Source: Xenophilus sp. Marseille-Q4582
GTDB lineage: Bacteria; Pseudomonadota; Gammaproteobacteria; Burkholderiales; Burkholderiaceae_C
DNA length: 64,000 bases
Direction: 5' to 3'
Assembly (NCBI RefSeq): GCF_916700565.1
Contig: NZ_CAKAKO010000001.1
Coordinates: 434,001 to 498,000 of the forward strand
The notes under the pieces are model-generated. The model was not told the DNA's origin and did no database searches. It saw only the letters and a program-made list of their open reading frames with translations. The position numbers and the translations under genes are program-made. Shown here one piece after another: positions 46,963 to 63,707 of the stretch (position 1 is the stretch's first letter; each line of letters begins with the position of its first letter).

Positions 46963-47484
46963 ATGATCAACGCGCTCGAATCGTCCTCGCTGCGGCCCTA
47001 CCTGATCCGGGCCCTCTACGAATGGTGCACCGACAACGGCTTCACGCCCTACCTGGCGGTGCAGGTCGACGAAACGGTGCAGGTGCCGCGCGAATACGTC
47101 AAGAACGGCGAAATCGTGCTCAACGTCAGCTACGACGCGACCAGCTCACTCAAGCTGGGCAATGACTACATCGAGTTCAAGGCCCGATTTGCCGGCACGG
47201 CGCGCGACATCAGCGTGCCCGTGGGCCGCGTGGTCGCGATCTATGCGCGCGAGAACGGCCAGGGCATGGCCTTCCCCTCGGTGGTGGCGCCAGTCTCTTC
47301 GGACGAGCCCGCTGCCTCACCCGCGGAGGAGCCGCGCGTGATGCAGCTGGTGGCCGACGAGGCCGAAGACCGCGCCGTGGAGCCGGGCGCGGCGGACGTC
47401 GCGCAGGCCGAGGAAGGCCCGGCCGGCGATCCGCCCAAGCCGGGCGGCAATGGCGGCCGCCCCGCCCTCAAGCGCGTCAAGTGA
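46963..47484 (+). CDS. sspB: ClpXP protease adaptor SspB
   Basis: 173 residues. It binds SsrA-tagged proteins and delivers them to ClpXP. RPYLIRALYEWCTDNGFTPYLAV and ARFAGTARDISVPVGRVVAIYARENGQGMAF form the conserved substrate-binding domain (residues 1-110). An acidic, Ala/Pro-rich linker leads to the basic end GGRPALKRVK, the ClpX-binding tail. Paired with sspA as usual. Confidence 0.95.
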   Translation: MINALESSSLRPYLIRALYEWCTDNGFTPYLAVQVDETVQVPREYVKNGEIVLNVSYDATSSLKLGNDYIEFKARFAGTARDISVPVGRVVAIYARENGQGMAFPSVVAPVSSDEPAASPAEEPRVMQLVADEAEDRAVEPGAADVAQAEEGPAGDPPKPGGNGGRPALKRVK

Positions 47485-47519
47485 GCGAGGGCAATCCGGA
47501 GCGGGCCTGCGCCTGCCAC

Positions 47520-47525
47520 TAGAAT
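47520..47525 (+). promoter_or_regulatory. Possible -10 box of tRNA-Thr
   Basis: TAGAAT lies 9 bp before the first base of the mature tRNA. No good -35 box is visible at 16-18 bp upstream. Confidence 0.35.
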
Positions 47526-47534
47526 CACCGTTTC

Positions 47535-47610
47535 GCCGTTTTAGCTCAGTTGGTAGAGCAACCGCCTTGTAAGCGGTAGGTCGTCAGTTCGATTCCGACA
47601 AGCGGCACCA
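47535..47610 (+). tRNA. tRNA-Thr, anticodon TGT
   Basis: 76 nt with encoded CCA. Acceptor arm GCCGTTT pairs with AAGCGGC (one G-U); D-arm AGCTCAGTTGGTAGAGC; anticodon stem CCGCC/GGCGGT-type with loop TTGTAAG giving TGT; T-arm GTCAGTTCGATTCCGAC. Everything downstream to the window end looks accessory, so its 3' end is the probable attachment site of the right-hand island. Confidence 0.96.
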
Positions 47611-47616
47611 TCTCAA

Positions 47617-47652
47617 AGCCCGGTAACGTCCAACGACGTCCGGGTTTTTTCT
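47617..47652 (+). terminator. Intrinsic terminator of tRNA-Thr
   Basis: CCCGG…ACGTC-CAAC-GACGT-CCGGG forms a two-part stem, followed by TTTTTTCTTTTTT from 47645. It starts only a few bases after the CCA end. Confidence 0.8.
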
Positions 47653-48003
47653 TTTTTCCCTCTTTAATCCCGGTTTGAGCGTCCAAAATCGTCCGAGAAA
47701 GTATGCCTCAATCCGGGGGCATATGGGGGCACATGTGGGGGCACAGGTTCGGAAAATGGGGGCATATCCTTGGCTCTCGACCGATGCTGAGCAATGTCGG
47801 GTTTTGTCGGGTAGCGCCGTCCGCTGCCTGTCTCGGCTGCAGCCGCTTGACTTCGCGCTCCACAGCGCGCCGCTCGGTGCGCGTCATTCCGTCCAGCGCC
47901 TGACGGCACCGGTCGCTGGGCGGGCACTACGACATTCCCATCAGGGTCAGACTGAGTGCTGCTTAGCAGCGTCGCATGCTAGACTTGAATTTGTCACGAA
48001 ATC
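47653..48003. other. Noncoding junction between tRNA-Thr and the island's first gene
   Basis: It contains four copies of GGGGGCA in the same orientation (47715, 47725, 47737 and 47758), which I read as possible integrase arm-type sites of an attachment region; similar G-rich repeats are familiar to me next to tRNA-linked integrases, but no integrase follows here. Further on, GCTGC-TTA-GCAGC (47958-47970) is a small palindrome about 35 bp before the S24-type gene and may be an operator. No SOS box of the CTGT-N8-ACAG type is seen. Confidence 0.5.
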
Positions 48004-48594
48004 ATGCAACCGCATTCATCCACGCCTCGCCATGGCGGTTCCCGACAGGGTGCCGGGCGCAAGGCTGCCTATGGCGAGCCCACCAAGACCGTTAGAGTGC
48101 CGCACAGCCTTGTGCCCGTAGTCGCGGGGTACCTGGCCGCGATGAAGCGCCCGCCTGGAGGCGTCGTTGATGGCGCCGGCCTGCAACCCATCGCGACGTT
48201 TCGCACCGCCACCGCCGTGTCCGTCCTCGGTCGCCGAGTTCGTGCCGGCAAACCCACTTCTGGCGACGATTACCAAGAAGATGCTGTCGATCTCGGCAAG
48301 CACCTGGTACGCGACCCGAGCAGCACCTTCCTCATGAAGGTCGCCGGCTGGTCCATGCGCGATGCTGGCATCGCCGATGGTGACGAGCTGGTGGTCGATC
48401 GCGGCGTGGCAGCCGAGGACGGGCGCATCGTCATCGCCGACATCGACGGCGAGTTGACCGTCAAACGCTTGAGGCGAACGGCCACTGGCTGGTTGCTGGA
48501 AGCCAGCAACCCCGAATTCGCCGATGTCCCCGTCGGCGACAAGAACGACCTGCACATCTGGGGTGTCGTCACGCACGTGCTGCGCGCGGTCTAG
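48004..48594 (+). CDS. S24-family (UmuD/LexA-like) protein with basic N-terminal segment
   Basis: 196 residues. The C-terminal half is an S24 peptidase-type domain: serine S117 in KVAGWSMRDAGI, lysine K154 in ELTVKRL, and a probable self-cleavage bond A81-G82 in RRVRAGKPTSG, followed by DLGKHLVRDPSSTF as in UmuD. The N-terminal 45 residues carry GGSRQGAGRK and EPTKTVRVPHSL, a short DNA-binding-like segment seen in mobile-element repressors. No umuC follows. It may be an RecA-responsive repressor of the genes after it; this is inference. Base composition is lower in GC than the core. Confidence 0.82.
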   Translation: MQPHSSTPRHGGSRQGAGRKAAYGEPTKTVRVPHSLVPVVAGYLAAMKRPPGGVVDGAGLQPIATFRTATAVSVLGRRVRAGKPTSGDDYQEDAVDLGKHLVRDPSSTFLMKVAGWSMRDAGIADGDELVVDRGVAAEDGRIVIADIDGELTVKRLRRTATGWLLEASNPEFADVPVGDKNDLHIWGVVTHVLRAV

Positions 48595-48631
48595 ACGCCG
48601 TGCACAGACTTTAAAGAACTAGGATGCCCTC

Positions 48632-49378
48632 ATGTCGCAAGCAAGCCGAATCGAATGGACCGAGGCAACTTGGAATCCGACTGTGGGCTGCACCAAGATT
48701 TCGCCCGGCTGCAAGCACTGCTACGCCGAGTCGATGGCCAAGCGGCTGAAGGCCATGGGCACGCCGGGCTACGAGAACGGCTTCAAGCTCACGATCCTGC
48801 CGGATCGTCTGTCCGAGCCGCTGATGAGGAAGAAGCCGACGGTGTACTTCGTCAACTCGATGTCCGACCTTTTCCACAAAGGTGTGGACGACAACTACAT
48901 CGCCCAGGTCTTCGACGTGATCAGGCAGTGTCCGCAGCACACCTTCCAGGTGCTGACCAAGCGAGCTGATCGCCTGGCTACCTTCTTCCGAACCCGCGAC
49001 GTGCCCACGAACGCTTGGATCGGCGTCTCCGTCGAGGACCGTAAGTACGGCGTGCCGCGCATCGAAGGTTTGCGCAAAGTCGACGCGCGCATCCGTTTCC
49101 TGTCCGTCGAGCCACTGCTCGAAGATGTTGGTGACCTCGACCTAACCGATATTCAGTGGGTCATTGTTGGCGGCGAGTCCGGGCCCAAGGCACGCCCGAT
49201 GAAACTGGAATGGGTTGAAAATATCCGCCAACAATGTGAGGAGCAGGGAGTGCAGTTCTTCTTCAAGCAGTGGGGCGGTTGGGGGGCCGACGGCAAACGT
49301 CGCTCCAAGAAGGCCAACGGCCGCCTGCTCGGGGGCAGAACCTGGGACGACATGCCGGTACTGTCCGCCCACGTCTGA
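48632..49378 (+). CDS. Three-Cys-motif protein (DUF5131, phage Gp37/Gp68 family)
   Basis: 248 residues. IEWTEATWNPTVGCTKISPGC begins the family; the cysteines C20, C27 and C30 (C-x6-C-x2-C, ending CKHCYAE) resemble a radical-SAM cluster site. VYFVNSMSDLFHKGV, FQVLTKRADRL, WIGVSVEDRKYGVPRI, FLSVEPLLEDVG and WVIVGGESGPKARPM follow in family order, and FFFKQWGGW closes it. The reaction is unknown. It is 37 bp after the S24-type gene and 8 bp before a TcmP gene, the partner family with which it is known to co-occur. Confidence 0.9.
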   Translation: MSQASRIEWTEATWNPTVGCTKISPGCKHCYAESMAKRLKAMGTPGYENGFKLTILPDRLSEPLMRKKPTVYFVNSMSDLFHKGVDDNYIAQVFDVIRQCPQHTFQVLTKRADRLATFFRTRDVPTNAWIGVSVEDRKYGVPRIEGLRKVDARIRFLSVEPLLEDVGDLDLTDIQWVIVGGESGPKARPMKLEWVENIRQQCEEQGVQFFFKQWGGWGADGKRRSKKANGRLLGGRTWDDMPVLSAHV

Positions 49379-49386
49379 AGGACCGC

Positions 49387-50661
49387 ATGACGCTGAAACA
49401 GTACAGCTGGAAAGACGGCCCCGACCTCATCCAGCAGCACAGCGTCGCAAAGCACCGCATCCTTGAGGCCTACCTCGCCGCGTACTTCCGCACCCTCGTC
49501 AGCTCGCCGAACCAGGATGTTCTGCGCCTGACCCTTGTCGACGGGTTTGCCGGCGGCGGACTGTACGTCCACAACGACACGCGCGAGCCCGTCAAAGGTT
49601 CGCCATTCATTTTCCTCGAAGCCACGCGCGAGGCGGAGTTCCACATCAACAAGGATCGGCGCAAGCCCGTCCAACTCCAGGTCGACTACTTCTTCTGCGA
49701 GGCCGACCGCCACGCTCAGATGCATCTCGACAAGGTGCTGCGTGAGGCTGGATACGCCGACAGGATCGGCAACGGCATCTACATCGAGCACTCGCGGTTC
49801 CAGGACAAGGCGGACGCGATCATTGGGTTCATCAAGAAGAAGAGCCCGAAGAATGGCCGCTCGATCTTCGCGCTCGATCAGTACGGCTACAAGGAAGTAC
49901 CTACGCACCTCCTGCGCAAGATCTTCGATGCGCTGCCGAGTGCGGAAGTGATCCTGACATTCGGGGTCGACTCGTTCATGAACTTCGCCAGCGACGGCGA
50001 TCAGGTTAGGGGTCTACTCGACGGACTCGGCATACCCGATATCTTCCGCGGCCGTTCGGTCGAGGAGATCAAGGCCTCCGACCGTGACTGGCGGCTCTTC
50101 CTGCAGAGCACGCTCTACCGTCGACTCGTCGAGAACTGCGGCGCCCGCCACTTCACACCGTTCTTCATCCGCAATCGCGGAGGCCACGGCGACTATTGGC
50201 TGATCCACATGTCCCAGCATCATCGCGCTCGTGACGTGATGACGGAGGTGCACTGGGCCAACAGCAATTACTTCATCCACTATGGCGGCGCCGGACTCGA
50301 CATGTTCCAGATGGTTGGCTACGACCCGAGTCATGATGCTGCTTACCTTGGTCAGTCGCTCCTCGGATTCGAGTTCGATGATGTCGCGCGGCGCACGAGC
50401 ATCGCCGCATTGACCGAGCACATTCCACGGCGCGTGTACGCCGACGACAGTGGGATCAGCTTCGGGGAATTGTTCGCCACCACGTGCAACAGTTCACCGG
50501 CGTCGGCGCGAATCTACCGTGAGTCGATCGGGAAGTTACTGGATGAGAAGGCTGTCGAGATCATCGGCGTCGACGGTACCAAGCGCCGATCTTCCGCGCA
50601 GATCATGGACAGCGATCAGATCTTGTCGCCACCGCAGCGCACGCTCTTCATGACTGGCTGA
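49387..50661 (+). CDS. Three-Cys-motif partner protein TcmP
   Basis: 424 residues. The TcmP family start HSVAKHRILEAYLAAYF is followed by LTLVDGFAGGGLY (51-60), which looks like SAM-methyltransferase motif I, and by IFALDQYGYKEVP (a D-x-x-G segment where methyltransferases have motif IV). FTPFFIRNRGGHGDYWLIHMSQH lies in the second half. TcmP proteins are named only by their link to three-Cys-motif proteins; activity is not established as far as I know. ATG at 49387; the stop is 3 bp before the next gene, so tight coupling is likely. Confidence 0.88.
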   Translation: MTLKQYSWKDGPDLIQQHSVAKHRILEAYLAAYFRTLVSSPNQDVLRLTLVDGFAGGGLYVHNDTREPVKGSPFIFLEATREAEFHINKDRRKPVQLQVDYFFCEADRHAQMHLDKVLREAGYADRIGNGIYIEHSRFQDKADAIIGFIKKKSPKNGRSIFALDQYGYKEVPTHLLRKIFDALPSAEVILTFGVDSFMNFASDGDQVRGLLDGLGIPDIFRGRSVEEIKASDRDWRLFLQSTLYRRLVENCGARHFTPFFIRNRGGHGDYWLIHMSQHHRARDVMTEVHWANSNYFIHYGGAGLDMFQMVGYDPSHDAAYLGQSLLGFEFDDVARRTSIAALTEHIPRRVYADDSGISFGELFATTCNSSPASARIYRESIGKLLDEKAVEIIGVDGTKRRSSAQIMDSDQILSPPQRTLFMTG

Positions 50662-50664
50662 GCC

Positions 50665-51885
50665 ATGCGCGGATCAACGTCATTGGGGGAGCAGCCGAAC
50701 TTGACTTCGATCATTCCGGACGCCTACGAAGGGCGCGAGCAGGCTCTGGTGAAGCATGCGCTCCTCAAGAGCTACCTTGAAAAGCTCGTGCTCATCATCG
50801 GCATGAGCGCCAAGAAGGCACGACGCGCAGAAATCTGCTATGTGGACTGCTTTGCAGGACCATGGGGCGCACCGGATGACGATCTTGATGGCACGTCGAT
50901 TTCGTTGTCGCTGAAGACGCTAGCCGCCTGCAAGAAGACGTTGGCAACGCTCGGCGTCGATGCCACGATGCGCGCCCTGTATGTCGAGAAGGACAAAGGC
51001 GCGTTCGATCGGCTCTCGGGTTTTCTTGGCTCGAAGGCGCCGCCTTCGGTCGATCAGGCATGCCTGCATGGCGACTTCGTAGACTTGCGTGGTGACATTT
51101 TGAAGTGGTGCGGGCCAGGCGCGTTCACCTTCTTCTTCGTCGATCCCAAGGGCTGGAAGGACATCATGATCGAGACGATGAGGCCTTTGCTTCAACGTCC
51201 ACGATCGGAGTTCCTGATCAACTTCGCCTACAACTTCATCAACCGCACGGCATCGATGGCCGTTTGGCAAGACGCGATGGCAAAGTTGTTGGGCGCGACG
51301 GTGAACCTCGACGGCCTTCAGCCATCCGAGCGCGAAGAGACGCTGGTCGACGCATACCGAACGAGTCTCAAGGCATGCGTTCTAAGCGGTCGTCCCGGGT
51401 ACCGTGCTCGCTCGGCCTACGTCACGGTGCTCGACCCGCTGCATCGGCGAACCAAGTACCACCTCGTGTATGTGACGAGCCATCCAACGGGGATCGTCGA
51501 GTTCATGGACATCTCCGAGCGAGTGGATCTCGTCCAACGGCGGGTTCGAGCTGCAAAGCAGATCGAGGTTCGTCAGCAAAGGACCGGCGTCACCGACTTG
51601 TTCGGCACCGAGCCGGAGATCGAGGCATCGGACGGCCGCTGCAGCCCCGACGATGTTGATGCCTTCTGGCGCCGATACCTTGCAGCGGGCGAACGGCGTA
51701 TTGGAACGGCTGAATTCGCAGACATCCTCGAGGGCACGAACTGGCTTCCAGGTGAACTGCAAAGCTCGCTCGTGCGCCTCGTCAAGGCCGGAGTCGTGCG
51801 CAATCTGGACGCCGATGCATCGAGGAGGCGATCGAAGCCGCTGCACTTCGACAAGGCGGAGCGCCTTCGACTCAGCCAGAGCTGA
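50665..51885 (+). CDS. Second, divergent TcmP-like protein
   Basis: 406 residues. It shares the TcmP plan ([22 protein letters not shown], then [17 protein letters not shown] at 57-73, and [19 protein letters not shown]) but has little obvious identity with its upstream neighbour. The D-P-K-G segment is closer to a methyltransferase-like motif IV. The C-terminal 100 residues ([20 protein letters not shown]…) look like a helical or winged extension. With only 3 bp to the previous gene, it completes a three-gene unit with the DUF5131 gene. The role is unknown; a nucleic-acid-modifying or conflict function is inference. Confidence 0.82.
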
Positions 51886-51927
51886 TCGCGAACCCACGAG
51901 ACAGCCCGCACCGCGGCCGCGACCAGG

Positions 51928-52142
51928 CAGCCGCGCGAGGTGGTGAAGGAAGCACTGGGTTGCAATGCCGCGACGGTGATTTTGGCGCAATCATCCCGTC
52001 GGGTGCCGTCGCGCCGAGCCGTGCCGACGAGTTCCTGACGCAGACGCTGAAGACGGCGCTGGCGCTCGTGGACGTGCGGGTGCTCGACCACCTGCTGGTG
52101 GCCGGCGCCGATGTCTGCTCCTTTGCCGAGCGGGGTCTGGTA
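51928..52142 (+). pseudogene. radC-type JAB-domain gene, 3' remnant with frameshift
   Basis: Two frames together give a RadC C-terminus: [19 protein letters not shown] in one (51931-51990) and [19 protein letters not shown]…[17 protein letters not shown]…SFAERGLV in the next (about 51995-52142). The H-N-H-P of the metal-binding JAMM motif is destroyed exactly at the frameshift, and the N-terminal part is absent. Intact radC genes are frequent in ICE-type islands. No natural stop is seen at the usual end. Confidence 0.8.
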
Positions 52143-52272
52143 TACACCGGTCGGGCGGAGGCGTCTGGCGGCGCCCCTTGGGTCACACCGCGATGGTCAG
52201 GCGACCGGTGCCGGTTCCATTGCGTGGCTCTGGCAAGATGGGCGGCAACGAAAAACCCAGAGGGACGCCGGG
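52143..52272. other. Spacer before the MazG-PIN gene
   Basis: Together with the radC remnant this makes a 387-bp interval without an intact gene. No convincing promoter is seen; AGAGGGACGCCGGG precedes the next ATG and may serve as ribosome site. Confidence 0.3.
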
Positions 52273-53502
52273 ATGAACCTCTCCGAGTTGCAGGCCGAGC
52301 TGCGCCACTTCGCTGCCGAGCGCGACTGGCAGCCGTTCCACACGCCCAAGAACCTGTCCACGGCCTTGATGGTCGAGGCGGCCGAACTCGTAGAGATTTT
52401 TCAGTGGATGACTCCTGAGGAGACACAGCGCGCCCACCAAGACCCGGCGACCAAGCAGCGCATCGGCGAGGAAGTCGCTGACGTGCTGCTCTACCTGCTC
52501 CAGGTGGCGGACCACAGCGAGATCAACGTCGAGGAGGCGGTCAGGGACAAGCTGGCGCGCAATGGCGTGAAGTACCCGGCCAAGCGCCAGATTACCCGCG
52601 TCTCGCCGGCCCGGGCTCCGGTGCCCGGCACCCATGTCCTGCTCGACTACGAGAACGTCCAGCCGAGCGACGAAGAGCTGCGGCTCATGGTGCCGAATGC
52701 TGGTCGGGTGTGGGTCTTTCACGGACCGCAGCAGCGCCAGGTCGAGCGGCGTTTCGCTTCCTTCGGTGCTGACGTGACGGCCGTGCCGATCAGCAAGACC
52801 GGCAAGAACGCGCTGGACTTTCATCTGTCGTTCTACATGGGCTACATCGCCTCGCGCAACCCGGCGTCGACGATGGTCGTGGTGGCCAACGACAAGGGCT
52901 ACGAACCGATGCTCGAGCACGCGAGAGGCATGGGGTTCATGGTGCGGCGGCAGTCGCACGAACAGGCCAAGCCTGCCGCGAAGAAGGCAACCGCAAGGAA
53001 GGTGGTGGCCAAGAAGGCGCCGGCGAAGAAGGCAGCCGTCAAGAAGGCGACGGCCAAGAAGGTTTCGCCCGCACCGGCAACGAAGAAGGCGCCAGCGGCC
53101 AAAGTGGTGTCGACGAAAAAGGCCGCGCCGGTGAAGACGGTGGTTGCGAAGCCATCCGCCCGGCCGGCTGCCAAGGTGGCGGCTACACCGGTCTCCGGTG
53201 TTGCGAGCAGACCGGTTCCGGCGCCGGTGATGTCACCGCCGGCACGTGCGTCGACGGTGACGGCCGACGAGATCGGAAAGATCACCGAGAACCTTCGCAA
53301 GTTGGGGGGCAATCGACCGACGAAGCCGGTGTCCTTGCGGCGCCTGCTGAAATCACTTCTCGTGGCAGAGACCGGGGACGCCTCGATCGAGGTCGCGCTC
53401 GACAAGCTGGTCGCGTCCGGCGTCGCGACGATTGGCGCGGGGAGTGAGGTGACGTACCCCGGTTTTGATCGCCCTGCCGGTTCATCTGCAGGGGGAAGCT
53501 GA
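52273..53502 (+). CDS. MazG-like pyrophosphohydrolase fused to PIN-like nuclease and basic tail
   Basis: 409 residues with three parts. Residues 1-106 are MazG/dCTPase-like: E35-x-x-E38 (VEAAELVE) and E67-x-x-D70 ([13 protein letters not shown]) are the metal ligands. Residues 118-225 match the PIN-like family with D125 ([10 protein letters not shown]), [17 protein letters not shown] and [13 protein letters not shown], all acidic residues kept. Residues 230-310 are a histone H1/AlgP-like Lys-Ala tract (repeats such as KKAPAKKA and KKATAKK), then a C-terminal domain (about 330-400) resembling a small helical/winged fold. It suggests a nucleotide-pool and RNA/DNA-cutting protein that binds nucleic acid; function is inference. 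ATG at 52273. Confidence 0.85.
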
Positions 53503-53536
53503 TGCCTTCCGGCTGGGGCGCCTTGCACCTCGCTTT

Positions 53537-54775
53537 TCAGGGATGCTGTACCTTTGACGTGGCGGGCGGGATTCCAAGCGCTCGCTGCATCCATGCCGAC
53601 ATGGGCCGGTCGGAGGCCAGTACCTGCTCGATGGTGGCCTGGGCCTGGTCGATGTGGTGGGCGGTGCGAGCGGCTTCGGTGGCGAGGCGATGGGCTTCCA
53701 CCACGTCGAGGCCCGTGAGTTCGTAGCCTTGCCCCATGGACATCCAGTGCAGTGCTGCCAGTGCGGCTTGCATGGCAAAGCCGGGTTGCTTGACCAGGTG
53801 GTCGCGCGCGGCACGCGTCAGGGTCTTGGGGTCGCAGGGCGAGGCCCAGGCCAGGGCGGTCGCCCGGTCGAACAGTTTCAGGGTCTTGGCGGTGGCGAAC
53901 CACTTGCCGGGCTCACCGGGTGTCGACGCGACGAGGTGGTCCAGCAGTCTGTCGCGTGCCAGTTCGGGGTACTTCTTCGCCAGCACCCTGAAGGTCGACA
54001 GGTTGGAGTTGGCCTGGTTGGCCAGCAGCGCGTATCGATCGAAAGCTTCTGCGCGCCGGCCCGCCTTCAGCAGCGCATCCTCGGCGAAACGCGCCACGGT
54101 TTCCTCGCCGGTGGTGCTGCCCGCTCGATCGCGCACGTAGGCGATGGCCTCGTCGACCTGGCCGCGCGCGACGAGCACGCGGGCGCCCCAGACCAGGTAT
54201 TGCCAGATCGGGCGGGGATCCATCGCCAGCAGTTCCAGCAGTTCGTCGTGGCGGCCGGCCTTGAACAGCGCGCTGTAGCACGGGGTGGTGCCGGCGAAGA
54301 AGGCGTAGCTGCCGCGATGGCGTTCGCGCAGCACGCTGCGCTGGGTGGGCAGCAACTGGTCGGCCCAGCTCGATGCGAGTTCGGGTGTCGCGCAGAGATC
54401 GCCCCAGTGGTCGCCCAGGGACTCGATGTAGGGTGGATCGTCCTCCTGGATGGCCTCGAAGAGGCGGTCGAGCCACTTCTGGCGCACGGCGGTGTCCACC
54501 GGCGCGTCGCCGATGAGGGGCACCAGTTCCTGGACGGCCGCGCAGGTGGCGTTGCCGAGGGCGCCGGTGGAACTGTCGACCTGGTTCAGGGCCGGGGAGA
54601 GTTTCTCCAGAAACAGGACGGCGCCCTCGGCCGCTGTGGCCGGATCTTGTCGGGCGACCGTACGGATTTCGGTGAGGGCTTCCTGGATGCGCTCGATCGC
54701 GAGCCGGGAACCACGCCAGCCGAACGCAGCCCGGCGAAAGCGAGCGCGGAATGCCCAGGGCCGCATCAGCGCCAT
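53537..54775 (-). CDS. Helical-repeat protein of unknown function
   Basis: 412 residues, no cofactor motif or membrane helix seen. Alternating helices with TPR/SEL1-like spacing (ALFKAGRHDELLELLAM, VLVARGQVDEAIAYVRD, ALLKAGRRAEAFDRYALLANQ) suggest a protein-protein scaffold. Conserved-looking blocks are LEKLSPALNQVDSSTGALGNATCAAV, DDPPYIESLGDHWG and HWMSMGQGYELTG. It resembles island-borne hypothetical proteins, but I cannot name a family. The ATG at 54775 overlaps the broken toxin gene by 10 bp. Convergent with the MazG-PIN gene, 34 bp apart. Confidence 0.7.
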   Translation of the reverse strand: MALMRPWAFRARFRRAAFGWRGSRLAIERIQEALTEIRTVARQDPATAAEGAVLFLEKLSPALNQVDSSTGALGNATCAAVQELVPLIGDAPVDTAVRQKWLDRLFEAIQEDDPPYIESLGDHWGDLCATPELASSWADQLLPTQRSVLRERHRGSYAFFAGTTPCYSALFKAGRHDELLELLAMDPRPIWQYLVWGARVLVARGQVDEAIAYVRDRAGSTTGEETVARFAEDALLKAGRRAEAFDRYALLANQANSNLSTFRVLAKKYPELARDRLLDHLVASTPGEPGKWFATAKTLKLFDRATALAWASPCDPKTLTRAARDHLVKQPGFAMQAALAALHWMSMGQGYELTGLDVVEAHRLATEAARTAHHIDQAQATIEQVLASDRPMSAWMQRALGIPPATSKVQHP

Positions 54776-54888
54776 CTCCTTGTCAAAGGCGCACGACTCA
54801 GCTTGTCGAGGAGGTCATCCAGGTGGATCAACAGGCCGCGGGTGGTCGCGCCGAACAGGGTGTCGGCGTCGGCGACGACAGGGATCAC
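54766..54888 (-). pseudogene. PIN-domain toxin, N-terminal 40 residues only
   Basis: From a GTG at 54888 the frame reads VIPVVADADTLFGATTRG followed by LLIHLDDLLDKLS and stops at 54766. VVADADTLFG is the first strand of a PIN nuclease with its first catalytic aspartate. A working PIN toxin needs about 130-180 residues, so the rest has been lost or replaced by the next gene. It starts 5 bp after the antitoxin stop. Confidence 0.75.
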
Positions 54889-54893
54889 GAATC

Positions 54894-55346
54894 TCAGCTC
54901 GCGAAGATTTCGCTGTCGAGGTCGGCGCCGAGCTGGCCCAGGGCCTTGCGGCGTCGGGTCTGCTCCTGGCGGTGCCAGGCCAGGACGGCGGACTTGAGGA
55001 CACGTCGCTGGTTGCCCACCTGCTGGTGCAGCGGTATGTCGCCGGCTTCGATGCGGGCCACGATGTAGGGGCGAGAGACACCGACCAGGTCGGCCGCTTC
55101 CTGGGTGGTCAGAACCGGGTCGGTCGCTGGTCCGGACCTGGCGGCGGAGGCCTTTCGGGTGCTGTCGCTGATCGCCGGGTGCTGGAAGAGCCGCGCGAAG
55201 TCGCCCTTGATCAGCCGCGTTGCCTGGGGAGTCAGCTTGACATGGCGCCGCACGACCTCGACCAAGGGATCGAGGTCGATGTTCACCGACAGCGCCGGGG
55301 CGGCGTTGCGCGGTGCGGCCTCGATGGACTTGTGGGCGGTCTTCAT
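54894..55346 (-). CDS. Antitoxin-like protein with excisionase-type helix-turn-helix
   Basis: 150 residues. The DNA-binding part is residues 78-125: LTTQEAADLVGVSRPYIVARIEAGDIPLHQ…GNQRRVLKSAVLAW, a MerR/excisionase-type wing helix. The C-terminal tail TRRRKALGQLGADLDSEIFA would neutralise the toxin. The N-terminal 60 residues (LVEVVRRHVKLTPQATRLIKGDFARLF) may dimerise. Usually paired with a PIN toxin; here the toxin is truncated, leaving an orphan. A TTCGAGT/ACTCGAA operator lies directly upstream. Confidence 0.82.
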   Translation of the reverse strand: MKTAHKSIEAAPRNAAPALSVNIDLDPLVEVVRRHVKLTPQATRLIKGDFARLFQHPAISDSTRKASAARSGPATDPVLTTQEAADLVGVSRPYIVARIEAGDIPLHQQVGNQRRVLKSAVLAWHRQEQTRRRKALGQLGADLDSEIFAS

Positions 55347-55349
55347 GGC

Positions 55350-55382
55350 TTCGAGTGTATCAGTTTACTCGAAATACTCGAA
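55350..55382 (-). promoter_or_regulatory. Operator/promoter of the antitoxin gene
   Basis: TTCGAGT (55350-55356) and ACTCGAA (55367-55373) form an inverted repeat, and a second ACTCGAA (55376-55382) follows 9 bp on. On the minus strand TACACT at 55359-55354 could be the -10 box, putting the start of transcription within a few bases of the ATG at 55346. This looks like an autoregulatory site. Confidence 0.6.
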
Positions 55383-55991
55383 CTTCGCGAAACAGCGATC
55401 CAGGTTGACGCTGGGTGAGGGATGCGTGGCGGTGCATGGTGTCATGGTGTGGTTGTGCTGATGCCAGGTCTCGGTGGGCCAGGGCGTGTCCCCGCCGTGC
55501 GGGGCCGGGCTGTTGCGCTGCGCGTCGAGCCACCGGCGATGCCGGCGTCTCGCCCCTGACGGGCTGCCATCCCTCACGCAACACGGTCGGGCCGGCGGAG
55601 CCGGCTGAAGCACGCGGCGGCCCTTTCCCGTGCCCGGGGATCGCGGGCCCTGATTCCTTCACGCTGCGCGTGAACGAGGCCCGCTTGGCGAACTGACCGG
55701 CTTGCAGGTCGCTGCGCTCGCTGCGGCGCCGGCCAGATCGCCACCCCGGTCACCCGCCACGCCCGGTGCCGGGCCGCTGAATGCCGGGTGCTTCAAAGTG
55801 CTCGCAGCGGCTCGACCGCCGCGCCAGTCGCTCGCCTTCGGCTCCCTTGGTGGCACGTCGGCCGCGGAGCCGCCGCTGCTCGTGATCGTTCGGTCGCCTT
55901 CGCTGCAACCGCTGCGCCAGGCAAGCTGGCACATCGGTCGCGACGCTGCGTCGACCACGAAGGGCAGCCCGTGCGCCGCTCGTCCCACCGC

Positions 55992-56043
55992 GATCCCCCC
56001 ACAAGCCCCCGTCAACTGGGTGAGGGGGACTTGTGGGGGGATC
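55992..56043. repeat. 23-bp near-perfect inverted repeat
   Basis: Left arm 55992-56014 starts GATCCCCCCACAAG; right arm 56021-56043 ends CTTGTGGGGGGATC. The arms match at 21 of 23 positions around a 6-base loop. No T-run follows. It is the strongest hairpin I see in the window. Confidence 0.85.
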
Positions 56044-56106
56044 TTCAAGCGGTGGGCCGGGAAACCGGCGCACTGCAACGGCTGCGAAGAAGCCCACCCA
56101 TCCCCA

Positions 56107-56157
56107 CCCCTTCCCGTGAGGGAAGGGGCCATGCCACCCCGCCCGCCCGTGGGCGGG
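56107..56157. repeat. Two adjacent perfect hairpins before ssb
   Basis: CCCCTTCCC-GTGA-GGGAAGGGG (56107-56128) and CCCGCCC-GT-GGGCGGG (56142-56157) lie 13 bp apart. They end about 80 bp before the ssb start. Confidence 0.75.
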
Positions 56158-56239
56158 AGCGAGGGAGTCCGAGCGAGAGGATCGGTTTTCAGGGAGCCTG
56201 GCTCGGGACCCGGCTGATTGCTCTCGATTGGAGAACACC

Positions 56240-56713
56240 ATGGCAAACGTCCAAGTCATCCAGCGACACGCGCACCTGGCAGGCGCCGTCAAGCTCGAAT
56301 TCGTCAACGGCCGCGAGGGCAAGATCGCCAAGGCGGTGCTGACCGCGATCAGCAACACGCGGCGCGCGAACCGTGGTGCAGGCGAGACGCGCGAGGAGGA
56401 GTCCACCGCGATCCAATGGACGCTGTGGGGCAAGCAAGCCGAGAACGCGGCCGAGTACCTGGGCAAGGGCTCGCACGTCAACATCGTGGGGCGGCTACGC
56501 AACAACAACTTCGAGAAGGACGGCGAAACCGTCTACGGCATGGCGTTCACGGCCGAGGAAATCGACTACCTCGACAGCCGTGCCGAGTCCGAGGCGCGCC
56601 GCAACGGTGGCCACGGCGCCGAAGCCGGCGCGAGCAGTGGCGAGCACGCCGCGCCGGCCGGCACCACCCGCAAGCCGCGCAACGCGCGCCAGCCGGCGCA
56701 CGCCGACGCCTGA
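56240..56713 (+). CDS. ssb: Single-stranded DNA-binding protein, island-borne
   Basis: 157 residues. The OB fold is seen in ANVQVIQRHAHLAGAVKLEF, TAIQWTLWGKQAENAAEYLGKGSHVNIVGRLRNNNFEKDG and VYGMAFTAEEIDYLDSR. The Gly/Ala/Arg-rich tail ends in ARQPAHADA and lacks the acidic DDDIPF-type tip by which chromosomal SSB recruits partners. ATG at 56240 with GGAGAA upstream. It belongs to the plasmid/ICE type of SSB. Confidence 0.87.
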   Translation: MANVQVIQRHAHLAGAVKLEFVNGREGKIAKAVLTAISNTRRANRGAGETREEESTAIQWTLWGKQAENAAEYLGKGSHVNIVGRLRNNNFEKDGETVYGMAFTAEEIDYLDSRAESEARRNGGHGAEAGASSGEHAAPAGTTRKPRNARQPAHADA

Positions 56714-56814
56714 ACCCGCACCGGGTGGGCGCCATGTTGGTCAATCGGCCACTGAGTAGGCCACTGAGCCGCGCCCGCCCTTCGAACCTCATTCAACGAT
56801 CGAAGGAAATCATC

Positions 56815-57678
56815 ATGTACTCGACCCCGACACTGGCCACCCGCTTTGCCCCCAACACCCGCGTGATGCGAGGCGACCTGCCCCTGAGCGAAGACCAGAT
56901 GCGTGTCGCGGCGCCGTCCATCTTCGCCGAGGGCAAGCACGCGAGCCGCTCCGAGCGCTACACCTACATCCCCACCATCGATGTCCTGCGCGGCCTGCGC
57001 AAGGAGGGCTTCGAGCCCTTCATGGTCGCCCAGGGCGCCAGCCGCGTGGAGGGCAAGGCGGCGTTCACCAAGCACATGATCCGCATGCGCCATGCCGGCC
57101 AGGTGCAGGCCCGGCCGGAGGCGAACGAGATCATCCTGATCAACAGCCACGACGGCGCCAGCGCGTACCAGATGCTCGCCGGCATGTTCCGCTTCGTCTG
57201 TTGCAACGGCCTGGTGGTGGGCAAGGTGGTGGAGGACATCCGCATCCCGCACAAGGGCAACATCCAGGGCGAGGTGATCGAAGGCGCCTTCCGCGTTCTG
57301 GACGAATTCGAGGCCGTGAGCCAGCATACCGAGGCGATGAAAGCGCTGCCGCTGGAGCCGCGCGAGGAGATCGCCTTCGCGACCGCCGCGCTGGCGCTGC
57401 GCTTCGGCGAGCGCGCTGTAGAGGCAACCGGTGGGCACCGGCCCGCGCCGGTCACGGCCGAGCAACTGATCGAGGCGCGCCGGCCCGAGGACCTCGGCCA
57501 CAGCCTGTGGACCACTTTCCAGCGCGTGCAGGAGAACGTGATCCGTGGCGGGCAGCCTGGTCGTAGTGCGCAGGGCCGCCGCCTGCACACGCGGCCGGTG
57601 GGCAGCATCGACCGCGGGGTGAGTCTGAACCGGGCGCTGTGGATGCTGGCCGAAGAGATGCGCAAGCTCAAGGCCTGA
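56815..57678 (+). CDS. DUF932 family protein
   Basis: 287 residues. The phage/plasmid-type DUF932 domain is clear: RYTYIPTIDVLRGLRKEGFEPFMVAQG, FTKHMIRMRHAG, EIILINSHDGASAYQMLAGMFRFVCCNGLVVG and LWTTFQRVQENVIRGG. The function is unknown; members are common in ICEs and plasmids next to ssb and radC. ATG at 56815 after GAAGGAAA. About 100 bp separate it from ssb. Confidence 0.9.
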   Translation: MYSTPTLATRFAPNTRVMRGDLPLSEDQMRVAAPSIFAEGKHASRSERYTYIPTIDVLRGLRKEGFEPFMVAQGASRVEGKAAFTKHMIRMRHAGQVQARPEANEIILINSHDGASAYQMLAGMFRFVCCNGLVVGKVVEDIRIPHKGNIQGEVIEGAFRVLDEFEAVSQHTEAMKALPLEPREEIAFATAALALRFGERAVEATGGHRPAPVTAEQLIEARRPEDLGHSLWTTFQRVQENVIRGGQPGRSAQGRRLHTRPVGSIDRGVSLNRALWMLAEEMRKLKA

Positions 57679-57684
57679 CAGGTT

Positions 57685-57714
57685 GGCGATGACTTTCCGG
57701 TGGAAGTCATCGCC
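57685..57714. repeat. Inverted repeat GGCGATGACTT…AAGTCATCGCC, copy 1
   Basis: Perfect 11-bp arms (57685-57695 and 57704-57714) directly after the DUF932 stop. A second copy with the same core follows the next gene at 58145-58174. Confidence 0.85.
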
Positions 57715-57778
57715 TCCGGTGCGACCGACCGGCCCGACCATCGGGCTGGCCTTCTCTCAAGAACCCGAGGAGCTTCAA

Positions 57779-58132
57779 ATGAACCACGACGCCATCGATG
57801 CCGAGATCGCTGTCTACGACGCGCGATCCCGTCAGGCCACGCAGAACGGCGCCCAGGCTTTCGCGCGGTTGCTGAAGCTGGCCGAGGAGCGCGACTCTGG
57901 CCAGATCCCGCGCATCGCGCGCTTCCTGGCCGCGACGTACAACGGCCAGGCCTTCCAGTTCGACCTGTTCGAGCTGCGCGCCCTCGACATCGCCATCAGC
58001 GACGACATGCTCAGTTGCCTGGACGCGCTGCGCTGGGGCCGGGCCGACCTGCACAGGCTCATCCCCGACGGTGACGCGCGCGTGCGCGCTGTGATCGAGC
58101 GCTGGGGCCTGCGCTGGCCGAACGACACCTGA
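57779..58132 (+). CDS. Small island protein, DUF7673-like
   Basis: 117 residues. Two helical parts: YDARSRQATQNGAQAFARLLKLAEERDSGQ and FLAATYNGQAFQFDLFELRALDIAISDDMLSCLDALRWGRADLHRLIPDG. It resembles a conserved plasmid/ICE family (DUF7673-type) of unknown function. ATG at 57779 after CGAGGAG. Bracketed by twin GGCGATGAC…GTCATCGCC hairpins, which suggests it moved as a cassette. Confidence 0.75.
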   Translation: MNHDAIDAEIAVYDARSRQATQNGAQAFARLLKLAEERDSGQIPRIARFLAATYNGQAFQFDLFELRALDIAISDDMLSCLDALRWGRADLHRLIPDGDARVRAVIERWGLRWPNDT

Positions 58133-58144
58133 GTGCCGAGCCGA

Positions 58145-58174
58145 GGCGATGACCTCAGCCGAGAAGTCATCGCC
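58145..58174. repeat. Inverted repeat GGCGATGAC…GTCATCGCC, copy 2
   Basis: Perfect 9-bp arms (58145-58153 and 58166-58174), 12-base loop, 12 bp after the stop of the small gene. Same core as copy 1, different loop. Confidence 0.85.
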
Positions 58175-58199
58175 GACCGCGCTGGCCGAGGCGCGCGAC

Positions 58200-58541
58200 T
58201 CAGGCCGGTCGCCCGTCCAGGCGATCGGCGATCCATGATTGAACGGCGCTCTCCGGCCAGGTCGCAGTGCGTCGTCCGGCCTTCACGGAGCGGGGGAAGA
58301 CGCCCCTTTGCATTTGCTCGTAGATCGCCGACCGGCGCAGCCCGGTGAGGCGCTCGACTTCAGGAAGTCGCAGCAGCCGGTCCGGCGCGCGCTTCGTGGT
58401 GTGTGCCACCCGCAGCGTTGAATCAGCGCGCAGCAGCGTGAGCGCTTCTTCCAGCAGATGAGCGGCTGCCTGCAGGTCGCGTTGGGCCGCATTGTCGGCG
58501 GCGAGGCGTTGGCTTGATGCGTCGACGGTAGAGGCTCGCAT
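58200..58541 (-). CDS. AlpA-like helix-turn-helix regulator
   Basis: 113 residues from the ATG at 58541; an open frame continues upstream to 58970 but lacks family features. The C-terminal AlpA/excisionase-type domain is RLLRLPEVERLTGLRRSAIYEQMQRGVFPRSVKAGRRTATWPESAVQSWI (residues about 55-104). The N-terminal 45 residues form a probable coiled helix (DLQAAAHLLEEALTLL). Likely a regulator of island excision or transfer genes. Divergent from the YhcG-type nuclease gene; the interval holds three copies of the TTCGGCATGCCGAA palindrome. Confidence 0.82.
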   Translation of the reverse strand: MRASTVDASSQRLAADNAAQRDLQAAAHLLEEALTLLRADSTLRVAHTTKRAPDRLLRLPEVERLTGLRRSAIYEQMQRGVFPRSVKAGRRTATWPESAVQSWIADRLDGRPA

Positions 58542-59116
58542 GTGACACCACCTTTTCGGTTTCCGCAGCTGCGTCCAATGCCGCTGCGTACATCCATAGC
58601 GTGCCTGGGCTGTCCGGTAGTGCCAACCTGTTGGCGCAAGGCGAGCGTGTCGAGACGTAGCACGTGCGGAAGCGTCTTGGGCTGTCGCTGACTGGCGCAG
58701 CGCTCGCGGCCGCGAGACCTTCGGCATGCCGAACACCGATCCGTTGATCGCGGTGAGCATGACGGCCGCCGGCCGGCGTGAACCTCCACGCCGATCAAGG
58801 CCTGGCATCGCTGATGGCGGGCCTCTTGGTTTTCTTCGCTCTTCACTCGGGGCACGAAAAAATCTGCGTGACCGCATCGCATTCGGCATGCCGAACACCT
58901 GGTGCTGAACCGACGAGGTGATGTCCGGCGGGAGAGGCGTGGTGCGCCGTCGAGCGGGTGAGCCTTGCATGTTCGGCGTGCCGAACGCGGATCCGTGTGC
59001 TGGATGGAGGGCCGGTAAGGTGGCCCCTTTGAAGCCGAGGTCGAGCCCGCGAAGCTCGTGCCGCGGGCTCGGCGCCCACGCGCAGACCCTGCCATCGACT
59101 GCTCTACAGTTCGCGC
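58542..59116. other. Noncoding divergent region with three palindromes
   Basis: 575 bp between the AlpA-like and nuclease genes. Palindrome copies lie at 58720-58733, 58882-58895 and 58972-58985. The region is lower in coding signal; short open frames across it (some containing G-M-P-N-T) are translations of the palindromes and are not supported. No promoter was chosen. Confidence 0.5.
58720..58985. repeat. Three copies of the TTCGGCATGCCGAA palindrome
   Basis: 58720-58733 and 58882-58895 are perfect TTCGGCATGCCGAA; 58972-58985 is TTCGGCGTGCCGAA, flanked by G and C. All are followed by C, two of them by CAC. Extended form TGTTCGGCATGCCGAACA. See also 60441-60633 and 61124-61137. Confidence 0.85.
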
Positions 59117-60277
59117 ATGACCTCCCTGCGCACCCTGCCGGCCGACTACGGAGCCTTCATCGAGAAGCTCAAGCAGCGCGTGGGCGCAGCGCGCCTGGCT
59201 GCGGCCCGATCTGTGAACCGGGAGCTGATCGCGCTGTACTGGGACATCGGGGAAGCGATCCTGCGCCATCAGCAGACGCAGGGCTGGGGTGAGGCCGTGG
59301 TGGAACGCATCGCAGCGGATTTGCGGGCGGCCTTTCCGGGCATCCAGGGCTTCTCGGCCCGCAACGTCTGGGACATGCGCCGCTTGGTCGAGGCCTATAC
59401 AAGGCCCGAATTTCTGCGACAAGCCGTCGCAGAAATGCCGCGCCCGAAGGCAAGCCGGCGCGCGCCCGCCACGCCCGCGTCGACGGAACGGGCGGCCGCG
59501 GCCTCTCTGCGACAACTTGTCGCAGAGGTTCCCTGGGGTCATCACCTGCTGATCCTGGGCCGGACCCAGGAGCCGGCGCAGAGCCTGTACTACCTGCAGG
59601 CGACGGCGGCAATGGGCTGGAGCCGCAACGTGCTGCTCAACCAGCTCAAGGCCGGCGCTTTCGAGCGCTCGCGCGCCGAAGGCAAAAGCCACAATTTCCC
59701 GCAGGTGCTCGACAGCCACCTGGCCGAACAAGCCGAGGAAGCCCTTAAGAGCAGCTACAGCCTGGAGTTCCTGGGCATTCGCCAGGCGGTCAAGGAGCGC
59801 GAGCTCGAGGACCGGTTGATCGACAGGCTTCGCGACTTCATCCTGGAGCTGGGCTATGGCTTCTGTTTCGTCGGGCGCCAGCATCGCCTCACGCTCGGAC
59901 GAAAGGAATACTTCATCGACCTGCTGTTCTATCACCGCTTCCTCAAGGCGCTGGTCGCGGTCGAACTGAAGGTCGGCCCCTTCGAGCCCGAGTACGCAGG
60001 CAAGATGGACTTCTACCTGAATCTGCTCAACGAGAAGGAACGCGCCCCGGACGACGCGCCCTCGATCGGCATCATCCTGTGCGCAGAAAAGGACAGCCTG
60101 GAGGTCGAGTTCGCGCTGCGCAGCAAGACCAACCCGATCGGCGTGGCCGAGTACCACCTGCAGCCGCGACTGCCGCACGATCTTCGTGGCAAGCTGCCGT
60201 CGCCGCGCCAGCTTCAACAGGTCGTGCGTGCGGCGCTGCCTGCGTCGCCCGTAGTCGACAAGGGATTCAAGAAGTGA
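59117..60277 (+). CDS. YhcG/DUF1016 PDDEXK nuclease
   Basis: 386 residues. The N-terminal DUF1016_N domain (VNRELIALYWDIGEAIL, FSARNVWDMRRLVEAY) and a C-terminal PD-(D/E)xK domain with D268 (YFIDLLFYHR) and E283-x-K285 (AVELKVG) are intact. Between them, residues 100-140 repeat the phrase LRQxVAExP (100-108 and 131-139); the DNA under each repeat is a palindrome. The family is found in restriction-linked and mobile islands; its target is not firmly known. ATG at 59117. Confidence 0.88.
   Translation: MTSLRTLPADYGAFIEKLKQRVGAARLAAARSVNRELIALYWDIGEAILRHQQTQGWGEAVVERIAADLRAAFPGIQGFSARNVWDMRRLVEAYTRPEFLRQAVAEMPRPKASRRAPATPASTERAAAASLRQLVAEVPWGHHLLILGRTQEPAQSLYYLQATAAMGWSRNVLLNQLKAGAFERSRAEGKSHNFPQVLDSHLAEQAEEALKSSYSLEFLGIRQAVKERELEDRLIDRLRDFILELGYGFCFVGRQHRLTLGRKEYFIDLLFYHRFLKALVAVELKVGPFEPEYAGKMDFYLNLLNEKERAPDDAPSIGIILCAEKDSLEVEFALRSKTNPIGVAEYHLQPRLPHDLRGKLPSPRQLQQVVRAALPASPVVDKGFKK
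59411..59435. repeat. Palindrome inside the nuclease gene, copy 1
   Basis: TTTCTGCGAC (59411-59420) and GTCGCAGAAA (59426-59435), perfect 10-bp arms. In frame it encodes FLRQAVAEM. Confidence 0.85.
59505..59527. repeat. Palindrome inside the nuclease gene, copy 2
   Basis: CTCTGCGACAA (59505-59515) and TTGTCGCAGAG (59517-59527), perfect 11-bp arms around one base. In frame it encodes SLRQLVAEV. Confidence 0.85.
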
Positions 60278-60279
60278 CC

Positions 60280-60396
60280 ATGACACGCGACCCGCGCGGC
60301 ATGCCGGCCGACCATCCGTGGTGCGAGCTGCTGACGAAGCTGCGCTACAGCCACATCACCATGCACGATGTCCTCACGCGATTGGCGGGATGCTGA
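60280..60396 (+). CDS. Short ORF directly after the nuclease gene
   Basis: 38 residues (MTRDPRGMPADHPWCELL…, ending LTRLAGC). It starts 2 bp after the nuclease stop, so it could be translated by re-initiation. No known domain; tryptophan and cysteine content is not random-looking, but the length prevents a firm decision. It may be a small accessory protein or a remnant. Confidence 0.3.
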   Translation: MTRDPRGMPADHPWCELLTKLRYSHITMHDVLTRLAGC

Positions 60397-60706
60397 ACGC
60401 GCCCACGCGATCGCTGCCACACTGATCCGAAAGCGACGTGTTCGGCATGTCGAACATCTGCATGGAAGGGGTAGGTGTCGGCATGCCGAACACTCTTGCG
60501 TGCGCGCCGGCGCGTGATGCCGGGGACTGTTCGGCATGACGAACAGGGGCGATGCCGAAACCTGGGTTGGCGCGTGGGCGGTTGCGATGCGAGGATGCGC
60601 GCGGGCGATCGAACGAAGTGTCGGCATGCCGAACGCGGAGTCCTTGTGCGGTGTTGAGGGCAGGATAGACTGGCGTCAGACATTGTTTACACCCCTGGTG
60701 TTCGTA
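60397..60706. other. Noncoding region with palindrome cluster upstream of mobC-like gene
   Basis: 310 bp between the short ORF and the MobC-like gene, containing four palindrome copies plus a half site. This may include oriT, which usually lies next to relaxosome genes, but no nic consensus was recognised. Confidence 0.45.
60441..60633. repeat. Four more copies of the TTCGGCATGCCGAA palindrome
   Basis: 60441-60454 TTCGGCATGTCGAA, 60477-60490 GTCGGCATGCCGAA, 60530-60543 TTCGGCATGACGAA, 60620-60633 GTCGGCATGCCGAA, plus a half site GATGCCGAA at 60551-60559. Start-to-start distances are 36, 53 and 90 bp; 90 bp also separates two copies near 58900. Confidence 0.8.
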
Positions 60707-61273
60707 ATGGCCAACGCTCCTCGATCCGCCGTGATCTCGATGCGGTTGCCTCCCGATGTGAAGGCGAGATTCGCTGCGCTGGCCGCGCGTCACCACCTCA
60801 CCGAGTCGGGCCTGCTCTCCAAACTCATCGACGAAGTGCTGCGCTCGAACGTACCAGGCGCAGTTGCTTCAGGGCTGGCTGCCGATGTGAGCGACGCCGC
60901 GACGGACGCTGCGTCGGAGGACCGCATCACGCTGCGCCTTCGTCATGGCGACCGTATGCGCGCTGCAGAGCGCGCCGGTGCGCGGGGCATGCGGACCGGT
61001 ACGTACCTGGTGCTTCTCATCCACAACCACGTGCGCGCCGCAGACGTGCTGCCGCCTCAAGAGCTGGACTTGATCAAGGCGGTGGGTGCGCAGCTGGCCG
61101 CACTGGGAAGGCAGCTGCGAATGTTCGACATGCCGAACACTTTGACCGAACCCGCAGCATCGGAGCTGCGTGATCTGCTCGCGCATGTGCGCCACGACGT
61201 TGAATCGGCGCGCGAAGCAGCGGCGGCGGTGGTGCGCCGCAACCTCATGAGCTGGGAGGCGGGTCATGCCTAG
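60707..61273 (+). CDS. MobC-like relaxosome accessory protein
   Basis: 188 residues. The N-terminus SAVISMRLPPDVKARFAALAARHHLTESGLLSKLIDEVL is a ribbon-helix-helix segment; ITLRLRHGDRMRAAERAGARGMRTGTYLVLLIHNHV looks like a second one, then LKxVGAQLAALGRQL as in plasmid mobilization proteins. It would bind oriT and help the relaxase. One TTCGACATGCCGAA palindrome is embedded in frame (MFDMPNT). The ATG at 60707 fits the domain start. Its stop lies 8 bp inside the relaxase gene. Confidence 0.78.
   Translation: MANAPRSAVISMRLPPDVKARFAALAARHHLTESGLLSKLIDEVLRSNVPGAVASGLAADVSDAATDAASEDRITLRLRHGDRMRAAERAGARGMRTGTYLVLLIHNHVRAADVLPPQELDLIKAVGAQLAALGRQLRMFDMPNTLTEPAASELRDLLAHVRHDVESAREAAAAVVRRNLMSWEAGHA
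61124..61137. repeat. Palindrome copy inside the mobC-like gene
   Basis: TTCGACATGCCGAA, the exact reverse complement of the copy at 60441-60454; read in frame as FDMPN. Confidence 0.8.
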
Positions 61274-63705: not shown

Positions 63706-63707
63706 TA

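Follow-up and report, generated by a model that had tools for sequence, protein, structure and literature searches.

The window analysed here is a stretch of 64,000 nucleotides of the forward strand of Xenophilus sp. Marseille-Q4582 (contig NZ_CAKAKO010000001.1, positions 434,001 to 498,000), and this work deals with four consecutive genes in it, which code for an S24-type protein, a DUF5131 protein and two divergent TcmP proteins (TcmP1 and TcmP2), and with the putative operator that precedes them. In window coordinates, the features are as follows.

47977 to 47985, plus strand: extended -10-like element TGCTAGACT, abutting the operator, with putative promoter function
47985 to 48005, no strand assigned: putative S24 operator TTGAATTTGTCACGAAATCAT, 21 bp, extending into the start codon
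48004 to 48594, plus strand: S24 / UmuDAb-type protein, 196 amino acids (open reading frame, ORF; PF00717, PRK10276)
48632 to 49378, plus strand: DUF5131 (Gp37/Gp68), radical S-adenosylmethionine (SAM)-like (ORF; PF07505)
49387 to 50661, plus strand: TcmP1, methyltransferase domain and C-terminal GMT-like winged helix-turn-helix (TIGR04474, PF22560, PDC-M30A)
50665 to 51885, plus strand: TcmP2, divergent second methyltransferase (TIGR04474), with an alternative TTG start at 50701

A first-pass annotation, made from the letters of the window alone, had described these four genes with gaps of 37, 8 and 3 bp between them and had assigned them to the S24, DUF5131 and TcmP families; the ORF calls gave the same gaps, and the profile matches to PF00717, PRK10276, PF07505 and TIGR04474 agreed with the family names. 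The mechanical ORF of TcmP1 begins at 49270, while the start favoured by its relatives (homologues of 424 amino acids) is 49387. As for TcmP2, the relatives listed have mostly 392-400 amino acids, residue 13 corresponds to the TTG at 50701 and residues 1-14 of its predicted model are of low confidence, so that the last of the three gaps may be 39 bp. The genome of the strain (5.54 Mb in 13 contigs) contains a single DUF5131 gene and no further TcmP match at E≤0.001.

When GTDB species genomes were scanned with TcmP2, 17 loci were obtained, with record titles corresponding to Burkholderiales-type bacteria or, in one case (L013), to 'Proteobacteria'. Taking as one locus the genes within about 6 kb of TcmP2, DUF5131 was found in 17 of 17, TcmP1 in 16 (absent from L017 and truncated in L012), and S24 in 15, the exceptions being L015 and L017. 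Since the same genes co-occur in these 17 other genomes, their togetherness goes beyond chance and the set is a real, recurring module, in which the linkage of the second TcmP and the S24 gene with the DUF5131/TcmP pair, raised in the first-pass annotation, is found again. The S24 protein was at least 67.9% identical to that of the window in 13 loci and 35% identical in two (L016, L018). Across the 13 loci, identity to the window proteins ranged between 87.5 and 97.2% for DUF5131, 78.4 and 94.1% for TcmP1, 67.9 and 84.7% for S24, and 58.1 and 89.8% for TcmP2, which makes the latter the most divergent part of the module. Flanking genes vary from locus to locus, near-copies such as L007 and L008 excepted. 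Split or truncated copies of TcmP1 or DUF5131 were seen at L012:7653-8012, L028:2309-3122 and L033:7603-8867, as a possible result of decay or of sequencing error.

The core pair has a wider distribution. In a survey of 300 genomes of the order, TcmP was found above the curated cut-off in 17. All of these also carry DUF5131, which adjoins TcmP in 16 of them and is on a separate contig in G164. Similarly, a survey of 398 genomes of the phylum (TcmP at E≤1e-15, with stretches of about 8 kb per side where the contig allowed) gave TcmP in 24 genomes, with DUF5131 adjacent in all 22 loci that were new to the analysis. Paired TcmPs were also present elsewhere (L021, L026, L116, L120).

The S24 protein matches PF00717 (9.3e-28) and the UmuD model PRK10276 (6.1e-38). 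In UmuD itself, the catalytic residues are numbered S60 and K97. Residues A81-G82, S117 and K154 of the window protein align with the cleavage site, the serine and the lysine of UmuD (8gmt/1umu), and all four are invariant in 41 relatives. In addition, the protein has an N-terminal arm (about residues 10-45). UmuDAb of Acinetobacter is described as a UmuD relative turned repressor, with an extra N-terminal arm, cleavage at A83-G84, the residues S119 and K156, and the operator TTGA-N4-GTWAC-N4-TCAA; helped by DdrR, it keeps its own gene, the umuDC operons and ddrR repressed (PMC11332147, PMC4807011). UmuDAb and the window protein have in common the UmuD-type S24 domain, the A-G cleavage site, the Ser/Lys dyad, the arm and the operator, with residues 83/119/156 of the former corresponding to 81/117/154 of the latter, whereas UmuDAb has several targets and the window protein one locus, in front of a radical-SAM/methyltransferase operon. 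Two arm stretches of UmuDAb available from published primers, GRKAKYQ(E24)PTK and RVPESQVAFI(K40)(R41)WLLDN, are matched without gaps by GRKAAYGEPTK and RVPHSLVPVVAGYLAAM in the window protein, about 28 residues being comparable. The arm had also been considered as a ribbon-helix-helix domain, an assignment that was rejected in favour of a UmuDAb-type arm in view of these published data.

The operator was derived by comparing the upstream regions of 14 loci, and its match to the published UmuDAb operator was seen afterwards. The main conserved upstream block comprises the final ~30 bp before the S24 start codon, where TGnTA occupies a -10-like position in 12 of the 14 aligned loci (it is missing in L007 and L008) and is followed by the palindrome TTGATTTCGTCACGAAATCAT; beyond this block the upstream sequences are unrelated. 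The operator lies at the same position in all 14 loci and in a fifteenth (G164/L138) not used for the derivation. In each of the 15 loci that have a UmuDAb-type S24 gene, the pattern TTGA-N4-GTnAC-N4-TCA[AT] matches at the start of that gene, with two extra matches within these loci (L006, L009), none in 1.76 Mb of other sequence and 0.0-0.2 per set in shuffled controls. The final A of the strict UmuDAb operator does not occur at any of these starts: the last base is T in all 15, because the site extends into the ATG. The consensus, with up to three mismatches, is present in a single copy in the genome of the strain and at the module in 11 of 11 whole module-bearing genomes, outside the module loci of which only two matches were found, both with three mismatches (G304, G306). 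With up to two mismatches, 399 genomes of the order gave four matches, two of them at S24 genes of UmuDAb type, and the reversed control also gave four, so that no more than the rarity of the site can be concluded from this comparison by itself. No exact LexA box (CTGT-N8-ACAG) was found within 250 bp upstream of S24 in the 15 loci. Further operator-like sites lie by neighbouring small genes at L006:12543-12563, L009:2068-2088 and L010:1168-1188 (one of the genes being weakly DUF6874-like), which suggests that the S24 regulon sometimes takes in neighbours.

Relatives of the S24 protein at E≤1e-30 are present in 50 of the 399 genomes of the order, and among the 51 matches other than those of the strain itself and G164, 20, mostly top-scoring, were taken for neighbour analysis. 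These arm-bearing homologues have UmuC directly downstream in 14 of the 20 cases (one of them split) and DUF5131 in none, a pattern suggesting that a switch of UmuD type, once paired with UmuC, was re-used for a DUF5131/TcmP operon. The 14 cases with UmuC could also speak for an ordinary UmuD polymerase manager placed in front of the other genes by chance, an explanation that we regard as very improbable: no match to a Y-family polymerase or UmuC was found within the 64-kb window, the operator hardly occurs outside the module, and other S24-type proteins have come to lie by the pair at other loci. These non-UmuDAb-type proteins are encoded ahead of the pair or next to it in L016, L018, L024 and a Comamonas plasmid (L139), and divergently in L030; that of L024 is a full LexA (PF01726, 9.8e-26), the heads of those in L016, L018 and L030 resemble LexA and that of L139 a helix-turn-helix, all four below the Pfam cut-offs. 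A palindrome, GGTGTATG-TT-CATACACC, was seen by eye before the S24-type gene of L016, and palindromes precede those of L030 and L139 in a scan allowing one arm mismatch at most, with 200 shuffles (1.5 and 6%, respectively), in which L003 stood out (0.5%) and the stretches taken for L016 and L018 ended short of the site seen by eye. Taken as a whole, the alignments indicate that the S24 protein is very probably a dedicated self-cleaving repressor, most likely a RecA-triggered autorepressor of UmuDAb type; the cleavable repressor proposed in the first-pass annotation has thus gained strong support from the sequence and has been sharpened to one with its own predicted operator.

With respect to the enzymes, DUF5131 matches PF07505 well above the cut-off (3e-109, 364.7 bits) and has the three-Cys motif C20-X6-C27-X2-C30, with the cysteines invariant in 60 sequences. 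Sequence and profile searches against PDB chains with DUF5131 and TcmP1 gave nothing useful, so a comparison of folds was needed for the former. The predicted model of DUF5131 is closest in fold to spore photoproduct lyase, a radical SAM enzyme of DNA repair, to which all six PDB matches with E<1e-3 correspond, at 13% identity and with DUF5131 being the shorter protein. This likeness is also an argument for the strongest of the rival explanations, a DNA-repair or damage-tolerance cassette, where DUF5131 would reverse a base lesion in the manner of that lyase, TcmP would methylate or mark the site and S24 would couple the whole to damage. SplB-like enzymes have been reported in SOS operons (PMC3765255).

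Both TcmPs match TIGR04474 (6.8e-67 and 226.2 bits for TcmP1, 4e-27 and 95.8 bits for TcmP2; curated cut-off 53), and the methyltransferase-like motif I and the D-x-x-G motif noted in the first-pass annotation are present in both, the latter as DQYG and DPKG. In TcmP1, D52, G56 and D164-Q165-Y166 are invariant in 28 sequences, in which the motif II acid falls outside the invariant or nearly invariant columns; in TcmP2, D61 and G65 of motif I, E108 of an acidic motif II, and D160 and G163 of motif IV are invariant in 47. The predicted model of TcmP2 has the Rossmann fold of SAM methyltransferases, closest to RlmJ and then to Trm1, and TcmP1 could be profile-aligned with TcmP2 over the full length, motif by motif (E 9e-8), so that a SAM-binding fold is predicted for both, directly for the one and by alignment for the other. 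RlmJ (23S rRNA A2030-N6) and Trm1 (tRNA G26) are about 10-12% identical to the TcmPs, which differ from them in the D-P-K-G or D-Q-Y-G at motif IV, the extra C-terminal winged helix and the operon context. The GMT-like winged helix is well defined in TcmP1 (PF22560, 2.2e-13, residues 311-397); the corresponding match in TcmP2 is below the cut-off (E 0.021), and this protein perhaps ends in such a helix as well. In four loci a large methyltransferase gene lies between TcmP1 and TcmP2 (L007:4980-7931, L008:2975-5926, L010:4968-7919, L009:4912-7989). The gene of L007 is MmeI-like and clusters with those of L008 and L010; that of L009 is Eco57I/N6-methylase-like. From the modelled folds it is likely that the products of the operon modify nucleic acid.

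DUF5131 and TcmP are already a candidate defence pair in PADLOC. The PDC-M30 models match DUF5131 (M30B, 4.3e-114), TcmP1 (M30A, 3.7e-21) and TcmP2 (M30A, 6.7e-12), and the PDC-M41 models likewise match DUF5131 and TcmP; relative to these candidates, the window operon adds a second TcmP and the predicted self-cleaving controller. New in the present work are this controller and its operator, the association of the controller with paired TcmPs and the folds assigned to the enzymes, and no functional study of DUF5131/TcmP or of the controller was found in the open-licence literature.

The surroundings of the related loci were compared using 116 of 120 candidate neighbour proteins from 16 loci (L006:1-2571, three of L019, and L008, a near-copy of L007, were left out) and, as controls, 120 randomly picked ORFs, out of 206, from 16 stretches of the strain's own genome and of seven relatives' genomes. 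At 1e-15, the neighbours matched 155 PADLOC families and the controls 27, figures to be read as a contrast and not as a test, because models overlap (one kinase matches 26) and the listing comprises 25 families per set. Among the neighbour matches listed were PglW (E=0), GajA (1.2e-236), mad2 (five proteins), type IIG restriction enzymes and DrmMI; the 25 control families listed had one protein each and included some of defence type (Cas1, reverse transcriptases, PrimPol). The related loci are rich in defence-type neighbours. An expression table in PMC12445080 also lists the Hna defence gene of S. meliloti beside a TcmP gene.

Other neighbours point to repair. At L024:5017-13186 (G073:C263), genes for LexA, a 117-amino acid ORF, TcmP, DUF5131, a SulA/ImuA-like protein (7.8e-07), an ImuB-like protein (PF00817, 9.7e-11) and a DnaE-type polymerase follow one another in the same direction, an arrangement resembling an SOS mutagenesis operon with the pair inside it; when the LexA-TcmP-DUF5131-ImuB-DnaE order was sought in one other genome of the same family, no DUF5131 match was found. 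L014 has UmuD-UmuC genes next to the module and L027 has them no more than about 4 kb away from the pair, compared with no Y-family polymerase in any of the 16 control stretches; one SRAP protein was found among the 116 neighbours. A repair cassette is nonetheless unlikely in our view, given that the patchy distribution of the pair in the order and phylum surveys (17/300 and 24/398 genomes), its carriage by phages and plasmids and its restriction and defence neighbours are more in keeping with cargo than with a housekeeping function, and that there is no obvious need for two divergent methyltransferases in repair.

Relatives of DUF5131 were found in 161 phage and 404 plasmid records; plasmid pCAR1 has DUF5131-TcmP and the Comamonas plasmid S24-DUF5131-TcmP. 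In the viral set, 80 contigs (L036-L115, some cut by contig ends) were kept out of 153 with a DUF5131 relative, and TcmP was present in 31 of the 37 best-scoring and in none of the other 43 (31/80 overall); the function of the two groups may differ. Such carriage, together with the MmeI-like or Eco57I/N6-methyltransferase-like genes between the TcmPs of four loci (two of them near-identical), could be explained by self-modification or anti-restriction, with the operon marking the element's own DNA while RecA is active during transfer or excision and so sparing it from host nucleases. The defence-type genes around the related bacterial loci count mildly against this proposal, which we hold to be decidedly improbable.

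Our best reading, which we favour by a modest degree of confidence, is that of a mobile, DNA-damage-inducible defence operon that modifies nucleic acid. The S24 protein would bind, as a dimer, to the 21-bp palindrome over its own start and so keep its own gene and those that follow it repressed. Where RecA is present on single-stranded DNA that results from infection, damage or incoming DNA, the repressor would cut itself at A81-G82 and lose its DNA-binding arm, so that the operon is released, and the enzymes then produced, the radical-SAM-like DUF5131 and the RlmJ/Trm1-like TcmP1 and TcmP2, would together alter DNA or RNA bases. The likeliest use would be to disable or mark the nucleic acid of an invading phage or plasmid, since defence-type genes surround the loci and mobile DNA carries them, and TcmP2, as the most divergent part, may set the target specificity. 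For anti-phage or anti-element defence taken by itself, which rests on this context and on the PADLOC candidate models, the balance is about even. We are more doubtful of a bolder proposal, by which a single self-cleaving UmuDAb-type controller would read RecA activity at one locus while the radical-SAM enzyme and the methyltransferase pair build a new hypermodified base that inactivates the invading nucleic acid.

Several observations weigh against the favoured reading. The LexA, ImuB, DnaE, UmuDC and SRAP neighbours at some loci suit a role in repair equally well. In the window copy of the operator, three of the ten arm positions are unpaired, and it did not stand out in the palindrome scan with one arm mismatch at most. 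TcmP2 and DUF5131 are on opposite strands in 6 of the 17 TcmP2 loci (L005, L006, L015-L018), and an operator-like site was sought before TcmP2 where it stands apart and none was found, so that TcmP2 is not always under the S24 switch. The S24 gene adjoins the pair in only 4 of the 17 TcmP genomes of the order survey (the strain itself, G046, G073 and G164), which have 45 S24 matches in total, and in none of the 22 further loci of the phylum survey, within the stretches of about 8 kb on each side. The core pair must therefore work without S24; the S24 gene is missing from the majority of the other DUF5131/TcmP loci covered, and the link is not general. Finally, the usual motif for the radical-SAM cluster is CX3CX2C, from which the CX6CX2C of DUF5131 departs, and for this reason the protein is not classed as a spore photoproduct lyase.

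Immune operons with DNA-damage controllers, namely CapW/BrxR, CapH+CapP and CapK+CapS, are described in PMC13373217. The arrangement predicted here is similar to theirs in having a dedicated DNA-damage-responsive repressor ahead of the operon, and differs in that those systems, as described there, rely on direct binding of single-stranded DNA or on a separate protease or kinase, whereas the window S24 protein should cleave itself with RecA. A search of the main text of that article for the terms LexA, UmuD and S24 gave no occurrence. A self-cleaving single-protein controller would constitute a further kind beside these three. DUF5131 and TcmP co-occur on phages, plasmids and islands, and the window locus supplies a likely switch, trigger and operator for them, while the photoproduct lyase-like and RlmJ/Trm1-like folds offer leads to the chemistry, with which the function of the pair becomes directly testable.

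The following features flank the four genes or lie further to the right in the window.

47535 to 47610, plus strand: tRNA-Thr(TGT) (ARAGORN), left flank, possible island insertion site
51996 to 52139, plus strand: RadC gene remnant, 3' part (PF04002 matched only at profile positions 74-121, 8.3e-12), right flank
59117 to 60277: YhcG-type PDDEXK nuclease
61266 to 62360: MobA/VirD2-like relaxase
62617 to 63651: DDE transposase

No integrase gene was noticed between tRNA-Thr and S24, and no att-like direct repeat of at least 20 bases was found in 47400-64000. The location of the four-gene set fits a mobile island, the borders of which were not fixed by the att search, and the nuclease, relaxase and transposase genes at 59-64 kb suggest a mobile element on the right. 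Just past tRNA-Thr there are four GGGGGCA(C/T)A repeats (47715-47766), which we take to be reminiscent of integrase arm sites, and a single ORF at 52111-53502 combines a MazG-like domain, a PIN7 domain and a histone H1-like stretch rich in lysine and alanine.

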